This document shows positions 9,582 through 15,039 of a stretch of 33,496 nt of DNA, in pieces. Position 1 is the first letter of the stretch. Every line of letters begins with the position of its first letter. Made by a program: the position numbers and the translations under genes. Below the pieces are notes generated by a model that saw nothing but the letters and a program-made list of their open reading frames with translations, did no database searches and was not told the DNA's origin. Origin of the DNA: an uncultured Bacteroidota bacterium. GTDB lineage: Bacteria > Bacteroidota > Bacteroidia > B-17B0 > Aurantibacillaceae. The stretch lies in the NCBI GenBank assembly GCA_937868545.1, contig CALMMX010000153.1:1-33496 (forward strand), given 5' to 3'.

Positions 9582-10859
9582 ATGTTTTATTATTTATTCC
9601 ACTATTTAGATCAACAATTCAACTTCCCTGGAGCTGGAGTGTTTCAGTATATTTCGTTTAGAGCAGCTTTGGCTTTATTATCATCATTAATTATAACAAT
9701 GGTGTTTGGTAAACGCATCATAAATTTTATTCGTAAAAAACAAATTGGTGAAACAATTAGAGAATTAGGATTACAAGGACAAAATGAAAAAGCAGGAACA
9801 CCTACAATGGGTGGTTTAATTATTTTAGCTGCTATTATTATTCCAACATTATTATTTGCAAAGGTTCATAATATATATATTGTTATAATGATAATTTCTA
9901 CCATTTGGCTTGGAACTATTGGTTTTATAGACGATTATATTAAAGTGTTTAAAAAAAATAAAGAAGGATTAAAAGGGAAGTTTAAAGTTGTTGGTCAAAT
10001 TGGAATTGGATTAATTGTAGGTGCTGTATTTTATTTTCATCCTGATGTGGTTATTAAAGAACGCGTCTCACATAATAGTTCAAGTGTATATGAAACTAAA
10101 GATTTTGATTTATTAACTGGTGCACCTAAAGATTTATCCATTCCAAAATATTCGGTTACTCCAATTAAAACAATAAAAACAACTATTCCATTTGTAAAAG
10201 ATAATGAGTTTGATTACACAGAGTTATTGTCTTTTATGGGTGATAACGCTATAAAATATGGTTGGTTAATTTTTATACCAATTGTTATATTAATAGTAAC
10301 AGCAGTATCAAATGGTGCAAATATTACAGATGGTATTGATGGGCTAGCCGCCGGAACTAGTGCCATTATAGGAACAACGTTAGGAATATTAGCCTATGTA
10401 AGTGGTAATACTGTTTTTGCCGATTACTTAAATATTATGTACATACCTAACACTGGAGAGCTAGTTGTTTTTATGGCAGCATTTGTTGGTGCTTGTGTTG
10501 GTTTCTTATGGTATAATGCATTCCCAGCTCAAGTGTTTATGGGAGATACAGGTAGTTTAGCTTTAGGTGGAATTATTGCTGTGTTTGCTATAGCCATTCG
10601 TAAGGAATTGTTAATACCAATTTTGTGTGGCGTGTTTCTAATAGAAAATTTATCAGTGATTATGCAAGTGTTTTATTTTAAATACCAACGCAAAAAGCAT
10701 GGGTTGGAGTTTGCAAAGGCTAACCGTTTATTTAAAATGGCACCACTTCATCATCATTATCAAAAATCAGGATTTCATGAATCTAAAATAGTAATGCGTT
10801 TTTTCATTATTGGAATCATGTTAGCAGCGCTTACAATCATCACATTAAAATTAAGATAA
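9582..10859 (+). CDS. mraY: Phospho-MurNAc-pentapeptide transferase MraY
   Basis: 425 residues, longer than the roughly 360 of E. coli MraY. It moves phospho-MurNAc-pentapeptide onto undecaprenyl phosphate, forming lipid I in the inner membrane. The family motifs are present: TPTMGG early, GFIDDYIKV (aspartate pair), [21 protein letters not shown] and the [10 protein letters not shown] loop. There are about ten hydrophobic helices. The extra length lies mainly in a hydrophilic stretch at about residues 155-210 ([10 protein letters not shown]..., [11 protein letters not shown]), the usual insertion in Bacteroidota MraY. It begins 3 bases after murE. Confidence 0.96.
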
Positions 10860-10865
10860 TACCCA

Positions 10866-12212
10866 TTGAATAAACGAATAGTAATATTAGGTAGCGGCGA
10901 AAGCGGAGTTGGCAGTGCAATATTAGCACAGTCAAAGGGCTTTGCTGTGTTTGTATCTGATAAAGGTTTGATTCAAGAAAAGTATAAAACAGAATTGAAA
11001 AATAATAATATTGCTTTTGAAGAAGGTAAACATACAGAAGAATTAATTTTAAATGCTGATGAAATTATTAAAAGCCCAGGGATACCTGATAAGGCTGAAT
11101 TAATAATTAAGGCTAAAGAAAAAAACATCCCAATTATTTCTGAAATTGAATTTGCTGGAAGATACACAAATGCTAAAATGATTTGCATAACTGGTAGCAA
11201 TGGGAAAACAACCACAACACTATTAACTTACCATATTTTTAAAAAGGCAGGTTTAAATGTTGGCTTGGGTGGAAATGTTGGTAAGAGTTTTGCCTATCAA
11301 GTTGCTACTCAAAATTTTGATTACTATATTTTAGAGCTAAGTAGCTTTCAATTAGATGGAATGTATGATTTTAAAGCGGATGTAGCTATTTTATTAAATA
11401 TTACTCCCGATCATTTAGATAGATATGAATATAAATTTGAGAATTACGTTGCCTCTAAGTTTCGTATTGCTCAAAATCAAACAGAAAAAGATGCCTTTGT
11501 GTATTGTGCTGATGATGAAGTGATGGAAGAATTTATGAAGCACAATTCAATTCAAGCAGAAAAACTCCCTTTCAGTATTAAAAAAACGGTTGAAGGAAAT
11601 GGCGCTTTTTTACAAAACAATGAAATAACCCTTAATTATAATAATAACCCTAAACCCTTAATTATGACCCTAGAACAATTGGCATTGGCCGGTAAACATA
11701 ATGTTTACAATTCAATGGCTGCATCAATGGCAGCTAGTATTGTTAATATCCGCAAGGATATTATTCGCGAAAGTCTTGAAGACTTTGTAAATGTTGAACA
11801 TCGTTTGGAATTTGTTGCTACTGTTAATGGCATCGAATTTATTAACGATTCAAAAGCTACAAATATTAATTCGGCTTGGTATGCTTTAGAAAGTATGGAT
11901 AAACCAACTGTATGGATAGTTGGTGGACAAGATAAAGGAAATAACTACGAAGAGTTAGCCGAATTAGTTAACGAAAAAGTAAAAGCTATTGTTTGCTTAG
12001 GTGTAGATAATAAAAAAATTATTAAAGCATTTAAAAATTCAGTAGAAATAATAATGGAAGCTTCTTCTGCTGCTGAAGCAGTAGCAATGTCTTATAAATT
12101 AGCAACTAAAGGTGATGCTGTATTATTATCTCCTGCTTGTGCTAGTTTTGATTTGTTTAAAAACTACGAAGATAGAGGTGTGCAATTTAAATCGGCTGTT
12201 AGAGGATTATAG
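10866..12212 (+). CDS. murD: UDP-MurNAc-L-Ala:D-Glu ligase MurD
   Basis: 448 residues with a TTG start; the N-terminal ILGSGESGVGSAILA binds the UDP-sugar, GSNGKTTTTLL (about 109-119) is the ATP loop, and the C-terminal domain starts near H312 with HRLEF, INDSKATN, VGGQDKG and LSPACASFDLF. These correspond to the E. coli residues reported to contact nucleotide (the R of HR) and D-glutamate (K and T of DSKAT, the K of the GG..K loop, S and F of S.C.S.D.F). It adds D-Glu to UDP-MurNAc-L-Ala. Complete and apparently fully active. The next gene, 3 bases on, is a second copy of its C-terminal domain only. Confidence 0.96.
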   Translation: MNKRIVILGSGESGVGSAILAQSKGFAVFVSDKGLIQEKYKTELKNNNIAFEEGKHTEELILNADEIIKSPGIPDKAELIIKAKEKNIPIISEIEFAGRYTNAKMICITGSNGKTTTTLLTYHIFKKAGLNVGLGGNVGKSFAYQVATQNFDYYILELSSFQLDGMYDFKADVAILLNITPDHLDRYEYKFENYVASKFRIAQNQTEKDAFVYCADDEVMEEFMKHNSIQAEKLPFSIKKTVEGNGAFLQNNEITLNYNNNPKPLIMTLEQLALAGKHNVYNSMAASMAASIVNIRKDIIRESLEDFVNVEHRLEFVATVNGIEFINDSKATNINSAWYALESMDKPTVWIVGGQDKGNNYEELAELVNEKVKAIVCLGVDNKKIIKAFKNSVEIIMEASSAAEAVAMSYKLATKGDAVLLSPACASFDLFKNYEDRGVQFKSAVRGL

Positions 12213-12215
12213 AAA

Positions 12216-12677
12216 ATGAAAACTGAAATTAAATCAAAAACATTTGCCATTAGCCGTGAAACAGATCACAGTTTTGAGTTTGTTGCAAATATTAATGATG
12301 TAACATATATTAATGACTCTAAAGCAACTAATGCTAAACTAACTGTAGAAAGTGTTAATTCTATTGACGCTGAAATTATTTTAATTTTAGGCGGAGATGA
12401 TTTGAAAACGGATTACTCGTGGTTTACAAATATTAATTATTATAACATTAAAACTGTTATTTATTATGGAAGACGTTTCCCTGAAATAAAAAATATTTTT
12501 AATAGACATGTAATGATTGTGTTATTAGATGATTTAGAGACTTCAGTGAAATTTTCGAAAGACAGAGCTATTAAAAATCAAGTTGTGTTGTTTTCGCCAG
12601 CTTGTCCTAGCTACGATATTTTTGATAATTATAAAAACAGAGGAAATAAATTTAAAACTTTAGTGCTAAGTAATTAG
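12216..12677 (+). CDS. Free-standing MurD C-terminal-domain paralog (no ATPase domain), function unknown
   Basis: 153 residues aligning almost without gaps to residues 312-448 of the adjacent MurD. By hand, H18-S-FEFVANIND...INDSKATN matches 14 of 22 positions, and the end VVLFSPACPSYDIF.NY..RG.KFK matches 16 of 28; the middle is diverged. The N-terminal UDP-binding and central P-loop ATPase domains are absent, so it cannot be a ligase alone. The D-Glu-side residues (DSKATN, S and F of SPACPSYDIF) are kept, but the MurD arginine after His is Ser, and the GG..K loop reads LGGDDLK with Lys shifted one place. Intact ATG start, no frameshift, 3 bases after murD, so translated with it. It might bind D-Glu or the MurD product, regulate or stabilise MurD, or be a slowly decaying duplicate; none is demonstrated. 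Homology to MurD is certain, function is not. Confidence 0.88.
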   Translation: MKTEIKSKTFAISRETDHSFEFVANINDVTYINDSKATNAKLTVESVNSIDAEIILILGGDDLKTDYSWFTNINYYNIKTVIYYGRRFPEIKNIFNRHVMIVLLDDLETSVKFSKDRAIKNQVVLFSPACPSYDIFDNYKNRGNKFKTLVLSN

Positions 12678-12680
12678 AGT

Positions 12681-12721
12681 TAAGTGATAAGAACTACTTT
12701 TCAGTAGAACTTAGCCACTTA
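12681..12721 (+). other. Hairpin between the MurD-like gene and ftsW
   Basis: A long imperfect stem in the 76-base gap: TAAGTG/CACTTA, TAAG/CTTA and CTACT/AGTAG, 15 pairs in all, interrupted by A/GC and AA/AA internal loops and capped by TTTC (12699-12702). No T-run follows, so it is not a standard terminator; an RNA-processing, stability or attenuation role is possible. CACTTAC recurs at 12730-12736. Confidence 0.5.
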
Positions 12722-12753
12722 CTGCTATTCACTTACCACCAATCACTAATAAA

Positions 12754-13902
12754 ATGAAACTATTCACATATTTAAAAGGAGATAGAGTAATTTGGGCAAT
12801 AGTATTTCTATTGTCGCTTCTCTCTATTTTAGTTGTGTATAGTTCTGTAGTTACATTAGCACATAAGTACAAACAAGGTAATGCCGAAGCATTTTTATTT
12901 AAACATATGTTTTTGGTTTTTGGTGGGATTGTGATAATGTATTTTGTGCACAAATTGCGTTACACTTTGTTTTCGAAAGTTGGACAATTAGGCATTTTTT
13001 TAGTAATACCTCTTTTGCTATTTACATTAATAAAAGGTGTAAGTGCAGGTGAGGCTAGCAGATGGATTGCAATACCAGGGTTAGGGTTAACATTTCAATC
13101 ATCTGATGTTGCTAAAATAATATTACTAATTTTTGTTGCTCGTGTATTAACTGTAAAACAAGGTCAATTAGATGATTTTAAGTCACTTTTAAAATATATT
13201 TTATTCCCTGTGGGAGCTATATGTTTATTGATTTTTCCAGCCAATTTTTCTACTGCAGCATTGTTATTTGTAAGTTGTTTGTTTTTAATGTTTGTCGGCG
13301 GAATAAAATTAAAATTCATAGCCTATATAATTGGTGCATGTATAGGAATGGGCTTATTATTAGGAGTAATAATTTACCAATTTCCTGATTTATTGAGACG
13401 TGGTGCAACTTGGAAAGCACGTATAGAGAACTTTAGTAAAGGTGATGCTAAAAATAATTACCAAAGCGACCAAGCAAAAATTGCTATTGCAACTGGCGGT
13501 GTTATAGGTAAAGGACCTGGTAACAGCACACAAAGGGCATTTTTGCCACAAGCATCTTCCGATTTTATTTATGCAATTATAATTGAAGAGTATGGTTTGT
13601 TTACAGGATTCATCATGTTGTTTTTATACATGATACTATTGTTTAGAGGTATACGCATTTTACGAGATTCTGAAAAAACATTTGGAGGATTAATTGCTGT
13701 TGGATTAAGTTTTAGCTTGGTTTTTCAAGCTTTAGTAAATATGGCAGTTGCTGTAAATTTATTTCCAGTTACTGGTCAACCATTGCCATTAGTAAGTATG
13801 GGAGGAACCTCTATTTGGTTTACTTGTATTGCAATTGGTATTATTTTAAGTGTAAGTAAAACAAACGAAGAAAAAGATACAAACGAAGTAATTGCAACAT
13901 AG
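12754..13902 (+). CDS. ftsW: SEDS-family septal glycosyltransferase FtsW
   Basis: 382 residues with about ten transmembrane helices. SEDS motifs are visible: GEASRWIAIPGLGLTFQSSD in the first large loop, YQSDQAKIAIATGG..GKGPGNS in the periplasmic loop, SSDFIYAIIIEEYG, and P.TGQPLPLVSMGGTS near the end. SEDS proteins polymerise lipid II into glycan strands together with a class B PBP; here FtsI from the same cluster is the natural partner. It could be RodA by sequence alone, but the position in the dcw cluster before murG argues for FtsW. ATG start after a 76-base gap containing a hairpin. Confidence 0.95.
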   Translation: MKLFTYLKGDRVIWAIVFLLSLLSILVVYSSVVTLAHKYKQGNAEAFLFKHMFLVFGGIVIMYFVHKLRYTLFSKVGQLGIFLVIPLLLFTLIKGVSAGEASRWIAIPGLGLTFQSSDVAKIILLIFVARVLTVKQGQLDDFKSLLKYILFPVGAICLLIFPANFSTAALLFVSCLFLMFVGGIKLKFIAYIIGACIGMGLLLGVIIYQFPDLLRRGATWKARIENFSKGDAKNNYQSDQAKIAIATGGVIGKGPGNSTQRAFLPQASSDFIYAIIIEEYGLFTGFIMLFLYMILLFRGIRILRDSEKTFGGLIAVGLSFSLVFQALVNMAVAVNLFPVTGQPLPLVSMGGTSIWFTCIAIGIILSVSKTNEEKDTNEVIAT

Positions 13903-13929: not shown

Positions 13930-15039
13930 ATGAAACCATTAAAAGTCATATTAAGCGGAGGCGGAACAGGAGGTCATATTTTTCCTGCAGTTGCCATTGC
14001 TAATGAAATAAAAAAACTTGTACCTCAAGCCGAAATTTTATTTGTTGGGGCATTAGGTAAAATGGAAATGGAAAAAGTCCCTGCTGCTGGCTATAGAATT
14101 ATAGGTGTTCCTATTGCTGGTTTTCAACGTAATTTTTCTCTCTCTAATTTTAAATTGCCTTTTTTAATTATTCAAAGCTTATTAAAAACTCGTAAAATAG
14201 TAAATGAATTTAAACCAGATGTGGTAGTTGGAACTGGAGGATATGCTTCTGGACCGCTTTTAAAAGCTGCAACTAATAAAGGTATACCAACATTGTTACA
14301 AGAGTGTAATTCTTATGCTGGAATTACTAATAAAATTTTATCGAAAAAAGCTAAAAAAATTTGTGTTGCATACGATGGTATGGAAAAATTTTTTGAAAAG
14401 GAAAAAATAATATTAACGGGTAATCCAGTTAGGCAAGATATTTTAAATGGGAATGTAAATAGAGATGAAGCATATCAATATTTCAAACTTGATAAAAATA
14501 AAAAAACAATTTTAGTAGTTGGTGGAAGTTTAGGGGCAAGGGGAATTAATGAAGCTATAATTGAAGGATTAAAACAGTTTGCAGATAATGATATTCAACT
14601 AATATGGCAAACAGGAAAGATATATTTTGATACAGCAAAAGTAGCTACCAAGCCCTATTCAAATAAGAATATTAATGCTGTTGATTTTATATCTCGTATG
14701 GATTATGCCTATGCTGTAGCAGATGTTGTAATATCTAGAGCTGGCGCAGGAGCAGTTTCTGAATTATGTATTGTTTCAAAGCCTTCTATATTAGTTCCAT
14801 TGCCATCAGCTGCCGAAGATCATCAAACTAAAAATGCAATGTCCTTGGTAAATAAAAATGCTTCAGTATTAGTAAAAGAAGCTGACGCGAAAACGAAGTT
14901 AGTTGTTGAGGCTATTTCATTAATTAATGATACAATACGTTTAAAAGAAATTAGTAAAAATTGTGGGGCAATGGCATTGCCAAATGCCACAAGTCAAATA
15001 GCTCATGAAGTTTTAAAACTAGCAAATTATACCAGTTAA
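13930..15039 (+). CDS. murG: UDP-GlcNAc:undecaprenyl-PP-MurNAc-pentapeptide GlcNAc transferase MurG
   Basis: 369 residues. It adds GlcNAc to lipid I to give lipid II at the inner face of the membrane. A GT-B glycosyltransferase with the N-terminal GGGTGGHIFPAVAIA loop, VGTGGYASGP, QECNSYAGITN, the second-domain VGGSLGARGINEA loop and the donor-binding SRAGAGAVSEL...PSAAEDHQTKNA. All are standard family motifs and the length is normal. It lies 27 bases after ftsW and its TAA shares a base with the murC ATG. Confidence 0.96.
   Translation: MKPLKVILSGGGTGGHIFPAVAIANEIKKLVPQAEILFVGALGKMEMEKVPAAGYRIIGVPIAGFQRNFSLSNFKLPFLIIQSLLKTRKIVNEFKPDVVVGTGGYASGPLLKAATNKGIPTLLQECNSYAGITNKILSKKAKKICVAYDGMEKFFEKEKIILTGNPVRQDILNGNVNRDEAYQYFKLDKNKKTILVVGGSLGARGINEAIIEGLKQFADNDIQLIWQTGKIYFDTAKVATKPYSNKNINAVDFISRMDYAYAVADVVISRAGAGAVSELCIVSKPSILVPLPSAAEDHQTKNAMSLVNKNASVLVKEADAKTKLVVEAISLINDTIRLKEISKNCGAMALPNATSQIAHEVLKLANYTS

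Follow-up and report, generated by a model that had tools for sequence, protein, structure and literature searches.

The stretch of DNA analysed here (the window) comprises 33,496 nucleotides from an uncultured Bacteroidota bacterium of the GTDB family Aurantibacillaceae (GenBank assembly GCA_937868545.1, contig CALMMX010000153.1, positions 1 to 33,496). It carries a cell-wall and division gene cluster in the order ftsI, murE, mraY, murD, SA, ftsW, murG, murC, ftsQ, ftsA and ftsZ, as assigned by reading the products, where SA denotes a stand-alone paralog of the MurD C-terminal domain. The genes of this region that are discussed below are as follows.

mraY, 9582..10859, + strand: upstream in the same cluster; directly 5' of SA in the family that has lost the cluster murD (f72)
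murD, 10866..12212, + strand: full length with a TTG start; TIGR01087 match of 409.6 bits; catalytic residues of the C-domain preserved; member of the family from which SA arose
SA, 12216..12677, + strand: stand-alone MurD C-terminal-domain paralog of 153 aa with an ATG start; probably non-catalytic
ftsW, 12754..13902, + strand: constant downstream neighbour of SA
murG, 13930..15039, + strand: 3' of ftsW; product with the highest partial distance correlation with SA

A MurD C-terminal domain encoded on its own

The SA gene is an open reading frame that begins with ATG 3 bases after the end of the murD stop codon at 12212 and terminates with a stop codon at 12675-12677. The initial annotation had described a free-standing MurD C-terminal domain at this position, and the reading frame, start, stop and 3-base gap were all confirmed. 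When the product was compared with the adjacent MurD by BLASTP, residues 17-150 of SA aligned to residues 311-445 of the latter; 35% of the positions were identical and there was a single gap (E 1e-23), in agreement with the nearly gap-free alignment reported earlier. The motif details in that annotation also were correct: DSKATN and SPACPSYDIF were retained, a Ser replaced the Arg that follows the His, and the Lys after the GG pair was shifted by one place (GGDDLK in SA, GGQDK in MurD). The 76-base gap between SA and ftsW (12678-12753) contains a short inverted repeat (CTACT...AGTAG, identified by eye).

Consistent with the reported lack of the UDP-binding and ATPase domains, Pfam and NCBIfam searches of the window SA revealed neither an N-terminal domain nor a P-loop ATPase domain (Mur_ligase_M). 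The sole Pfam match was to Mur_ligase_C (PF02875; 21.8 bits, below the gathering cut-off of 28.4), and the NCBIfam murD model TIGR01087 was matched at model positions 303-439 with 121.3 bits, under its curated cut-off of 211.95; this cut-off was passed by SA only when it was joined in frame with its neighbours. A phmmer search against the PDB gave a MurD match at 1.5e-14. There was no family model specific to SA in either Pfam or NCBIfam. The window SA is a MurD C-terminal domain only, located between murD and ftsW. It differs from a working MurD ligase in having one domain instead of three, in the residues equivalent to R302 and K348 and in its TIGR01087 score, and it belongs with the Mur ligase C-terminal domains (PF02875) by homology and predicted fold, the Pfam score below the cut-off notwithstanding.

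The AlphaFold2 model of the window SA (mean pLDDT 82.5, pTM 0.81) was confident except for residues 1-17. Its best structural matches were MurD structures over the C-domain, with TM scores normalised to the query of 0.69-0.81 among the MurD entries listed and 0.73-0.74 for the E. coli MurD entries. The window SA is predicted, therefore, to keep the Mur-ligase C-domain fold. As well as this fold, SA has in common with the MurD C-domain the core motifs H.E, NDS, GG, SPAC and RG..F and a location beside murD; it differs in the absence of the N-terminal and ATPase domains, the lack of conservation of R302, K319, T321 and K348, an N-terminal tail of its own and its separate grouping in trees. MurT, of the MurT/GatD amidotransferase, gave a weak fold match to the model (E 4e-4) and likewise derives its architecture from the Mur ligases. 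Whereas MurT contains the central domain of these ligases and works with a glutamine amidotransferase, SA is a single domain with no ATPase and no adjoining amidotransferase gene.

Distribution, selection and descent

A closely similar, full-length SA occupied the corresponding position in all but one of the 19 other genomes of the genus (18 of 19), well above what chance would give; the remaining genome had a 39-residue match within a 47-codon open frame. At least two MurD C-domain matches were detected by profile search in about 80 of 396 Bacteroidia genomes, from 19 of 77 families; the figure of about 80 is a count of two-match genomes that were individually inspected in part, and 58 genomes were re-listed. 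Most Bacteroidia families had no SA, which suggests that its role is dispensable or replaced in those families. No SA was found among about 186 genomes from other classes of the phylum (247 genomes were drawn from the phylum). Two genomes of these classes that had double matches (G496 and G628) were rejected as carriers, each having one MurD broken in pieces.

Gene order was read in more than 100 loci. Many of the genomes are metagenome-assembled (MAGs), as are the named SA-bearing loci, which are mostly labelled Bacteroidetes, with some labelled Flavobacteriales, Crocinitomicaceae, Sediminibacterium or Chitinophaga. The order murD-SA-ftsW was observed at 81 distinct loci, in one of which murD is cut by the contig end (L164) and in another of which it lies in two frames (L081). 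The gene downstream of the cluster SA was ftsW wherever that side was readable, except at L190, where it was a second SA copy; the median gap from the SA stop to the ftsW start was 19 bases (34 loci with a placeable start). In one genome (G076) the SA-ftsW pair was on a different contig from murE-mraY-murD, and murG was not found beside this ftsW within the stretch read. The presence of SA in the cluster beside ftsW supports the initial suggestion of an accessory part of wall synthesis.

Several loci departed from the single-copy arrangement. L190 has a tandem pair of SA copies between murD and ftsW. At L081 the two murD frames overlap beside an intact SA, which may reflect either an error in the sequence or a true interruption of the gene. 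A second, very diverged SA was located outside the cluster at L157, L167 and L199 (families f4 and f45), with an aldehyde-dehydrogenase-like frame, recognised by reading the sequence, adjoining it in all three. Additional copies outside the cluster at L153 and L194 had no common context.

For unsaturated pairs, available within the genus only, the median dN/dS of SA was 0.044 and the maximum 0.216; the corresponding values in the genus were similar, at 0.068 for murD, 0.083 for ftsW and 0.049 for mraY. These values indicate that SA is under strong purifying selection and that selection acts on the protein. SA was neither missing from close relatives of the window genome nor close to a dN/dS of 1, and its position across distant lineages, together with purifying selection, is that of a conserved accessory gene of the dcw cluster. 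The selection data contradict the view that SA is a functionless leftover of a duplicated murD. Loss of the gene in many families of the class would fit such a relic, but the intact frames, a dN/dS of about 0.04, a fixed position across 19 families and survival in f72 after the canonical murD left the cluster make it very improbable.

Two other origins were rejected. A recent duplication of murD was ruled out by the 35% identity and by the grouping of SA apart from MurD. A split or frameshifted MurD, including the earlier concern that SA might be a frameshifted part of one larger gene, was ruled out because the adjacent murD encodes a complete protein and both genes occur in relatives; since MurD itself is intact, SA is not part of a split enzyme.

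In a tree of 142 C-domains, built on an alignment of 146 columns in which few forks were resolved and several branches were long, the SA copies required 3 label changes compared to a mean of 47.7 for shuffled labels. With the most divergent rows left out, a tree constrained to hold all SA copies together exceeded the unconstrained quick tree by 30.6 in log-likelihood (AU p 0.80). SA copies grouped together, away from MurD, and were not placed next to the MurD that the same genome encodes. The distances between SA copies were significantly correlated with those of MurD, FtsW, MraY and MurG (Mantel tests, all p 0.0005), which argues for mainly vertical descent. The simplest reading of these data, with which they are compatible but which they do not prove, is a single old duplication deep in the class Bacteroidia followed by mostly vertical descent and many losses. 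The occurrence in 19 of 77 families, the low dN/dS and the separation from MurD agree with the old duplication under selection that had been proposed from the window.

Residue loss and persistence without the canonical murD

Residues were numbered according to E. coli MurD and mapped by motif. In the closed state of MurD, R302 forms a bond to the phosphate of ADP (PMC4816537); the Glu site is lined by T321, K348, S415 and F422, which contact glutamate mimics (PMC3527612). The equivalents of R302, K319, T321 and K348 were 98-100% fixed in 50 Bacteroidia MurDs; in 62 SA copies they were retained in 45%, 56%, 66% and 13%, respectively, the K348 position being Lys in 98% of the MurDs. The window SA has Ser for R302 and Leu for K348, and retains K319 and T321. 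Other positions were better kept in the SA copies, namely N (98%), S (92%), P (100%) and C (87%), the H.E and RG pairs, and the positions that match S415 (81%) and F422 (Tyr in 87%). Because residues that are fixed in MurD are eroded in SA, it is probably a pseudo-domain rather than an enzyme. A general role as a C-domain that complements MurD in trans was rejected, given that the catalytic residues are retained in MurD and not in the SA copies. In some copies (families f12 and f72, genus g209) the glutamate-site residues were nearly complete, and these copies may have a ligand-binding role.

One family, f72, retains SA without a canonical cluster murD. In genome G289 the order was mraY-SA-ftsW with no murD between, and MurD was encoded elsewhere, within an 885-residue frame. 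The N-terminal half of this frame matched MurL with 257.8 bits, against a cut-off of 700, and the C-terminal half matched murD above the cut-off (288 bits). All 20 of the f72 genomes inspected had mraY-SA-ftsW with no murD in the cluster. SA was detected in 54 of 61 f72 genomes; among the other seven, three were 55-71% complete and four belonged to genus g207, in which the copies are very diverged. Sixteen further f72 murD regions comprised six MurL-MurD fusions, two with MurL directly before MurD and eight with MurD alone in the stretch. Seven regions encoded the fusion as one frame of 885-1043 aa (L187, L229-L231 and L234-L236), and at L226 and L227 a separate MurL gene lay directly 5' of the replacement murD, the open frames overlapping. 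At L206 and L215, murG was unmatched within about 1.7 kb after ftsW.

MurL was matched in 28 of 28 f72 genomes tested, always below the curated cut-off, and glutamate racemase (MurI) gave no match in 28 of 28. Control genomes from f1, f9 and f10, which have SA and a canonical murD, all had MurI, and MurL was absent from the three. The f72 SA copies clustered with other SA, and the f72 replacement MurDs formed a separate group (100, in a quick tree with weak deep forks). The MurD2/MurL pathway is known from Xanthomonas and other bacteria that have no D-Glu-forming gene, is listed for proteobacteria and actinobacteria only, and consists of a complete ligase (MurD2) and an epimerase (MurL) (PMC8788868). 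SA is neither of these; it persists in f72, where the MurL-bearing pathway is present and the canonical murD is not.

As far as homology shows, SA in f72 has outlived the canonical murD and the supply of free D-Glu through MurI. Its retention there argues against the proposal, made in the initial annotation, that SA senses D-Glu or a D-Glu-bearing precursor. Most copies do keep the NDS and SPAC motifs and, in the last motif, the Ser and Tyr, as such a sensor might lead one to expect, but the K348, T321, K319 and R302 equivalents are not conserved and the final motifs are often gone from the f72 copies (for example, L201 SPACENGIPMKEQG); a sensor role is thus improbable. The same annotation had suggested that SA might hold MurD in a complex. 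A complex with MurD is possible, but the canonical enzyme cannot be an obligate partner, since SA outlives it in f72; the replacement MurD, encoded elsewhere in these genomes, could serve as the partner there.

Candidate role at the membrane steps

When the other cluster proteins were taken out in partial Mantel tests, the SA distances remained correlated with those of MurG (r 0.36) and MraY (r 0.27; permutation p 0.002 each). There was no significant correlation with MurD (-0.04, p 0.71) or FtsW (0.02, p 0.42). The partial correlations were stable when single loci or the fast family f9 were omitted; they are weak and were computed on saturating distances. Mur ligases are reported in reviews to bind MurG, MraY and MreB, and a scaffold that joins the cytoplasmic Mur ligases to MraY and MurG is proposed (PMC4929429, PMC6420597).

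On the basis of these correlations and the reported binding, SA is tentatively regarded as an adaptor that lacks catalytic activity and acts in the membrane-bound part of the pathway (MraY/MurG/FtsW). The conservation, gene position, selection, residue loss and predicted fold of SA, and its persistence where murD has been replaced, are results of the analysis; we infer both the adaptor role and the identity of the partners. According to this model, the MurD C-terminal domain would have been duplicated deep in Bacteroidia and the copy would have settled in the murD-ftsW interval. SA would retain the Mur-ligase C-domain fold as a docking module, and this module would link cytoplasmic precursor synthesis to the membrane steps on the MraY/MurG and FtsW side. 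It would act without catalysis and independently of the canonical MurD and of free D-Glu. Several points count against the adaptor reading: most families of the class have no SA, the correlations are weak and the partner they favour, MurG, is not the product of the adjoining gene, ftsW, the replacement MurD of f72 could be the partner in that family, and the copies with a nearly complete glutamate site may bind a ligand.

Alternatively, SA could be a regulatory decoy. It would dock onto two domains of MurD, the N-terminal and the central one (in the canonical enzyme or, in f72, its replacement), either displacing the mobile C-domain of MurD itself or sitting beside it, and would so tune the activity of the enzyme. 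The predicted sharing of the MurD C-domain fold and the adjacency to murD at 81 distinct loci are consistent with such docking, which is mechanically plausible because the MurD C-domain rotates between open and closed states (PMC4816537). The nil partial correlation with MurD is not, and in f72 and G076 SA stays beside ftsW and away from any murD; furthermore, over half of the copies, that of the window among them, have lost Arg302, a residue that contributes to locking MurD in its closed state. A decoy is considered unlikely.

A role unrelated to Mur ligases, such as that of an FtsW- or divisome-specific factor, is judged no more probable than the decoy. It would account for the retention of ftsW as the sole neighbour in all rearranged cluster cases and for the extreme divergence of the motifs in several families. 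However, most copies still have the NDS, SPAC and RG..F residues, the model of the window SA retains a Mur-ligase fold, and no partial distance correlation with FtsW was observed. The adaptor is preferred to both of these alternatives and to a sensor, which ranks below them.

The MurG/MreB scaffolds of Thermotoga, Bordetella and E. coli consist of an enzyme and a filament protein, unlike the single-domain SA, and no stand-alone Mur-ligase domain is described as an adaptor in the portions of the two reviews covered (PMC4929429, PMC6420597). The part of the open-access literature that was searched held nothing relevant on either a shortened paralog of MurD or a pseudo-enzyme of the Mur-ligase type in Bacteroidota, which is a weak absence. 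It is conceivable, on comparative grounds and with some way to go to an even chance, that SA represents an undescribed non-catalytic subunit of wall synthesis at the MraY/MurG/FtsW step, present in a large part of Bacteroidia and capable of outliving its parent enzyme.

Family f72 provides a natural experiment, in which any binding partner of SA must be something other than the canonical MurD, and free D-Glu is an improbable candidate. Few pathways have been studied as thoroughly as peptidoglycan synthesis, whose gene cluster is a standard textbook example. If a conserved dcw gene specifies a protein that is not an enzyme and is not one of the known division proteins, this would imply that a coupling of the precursor ligases to the membrane machinery has gone unnoticed, and would suggest that domains of Mur ligases can take on new, non-catalytic uses.
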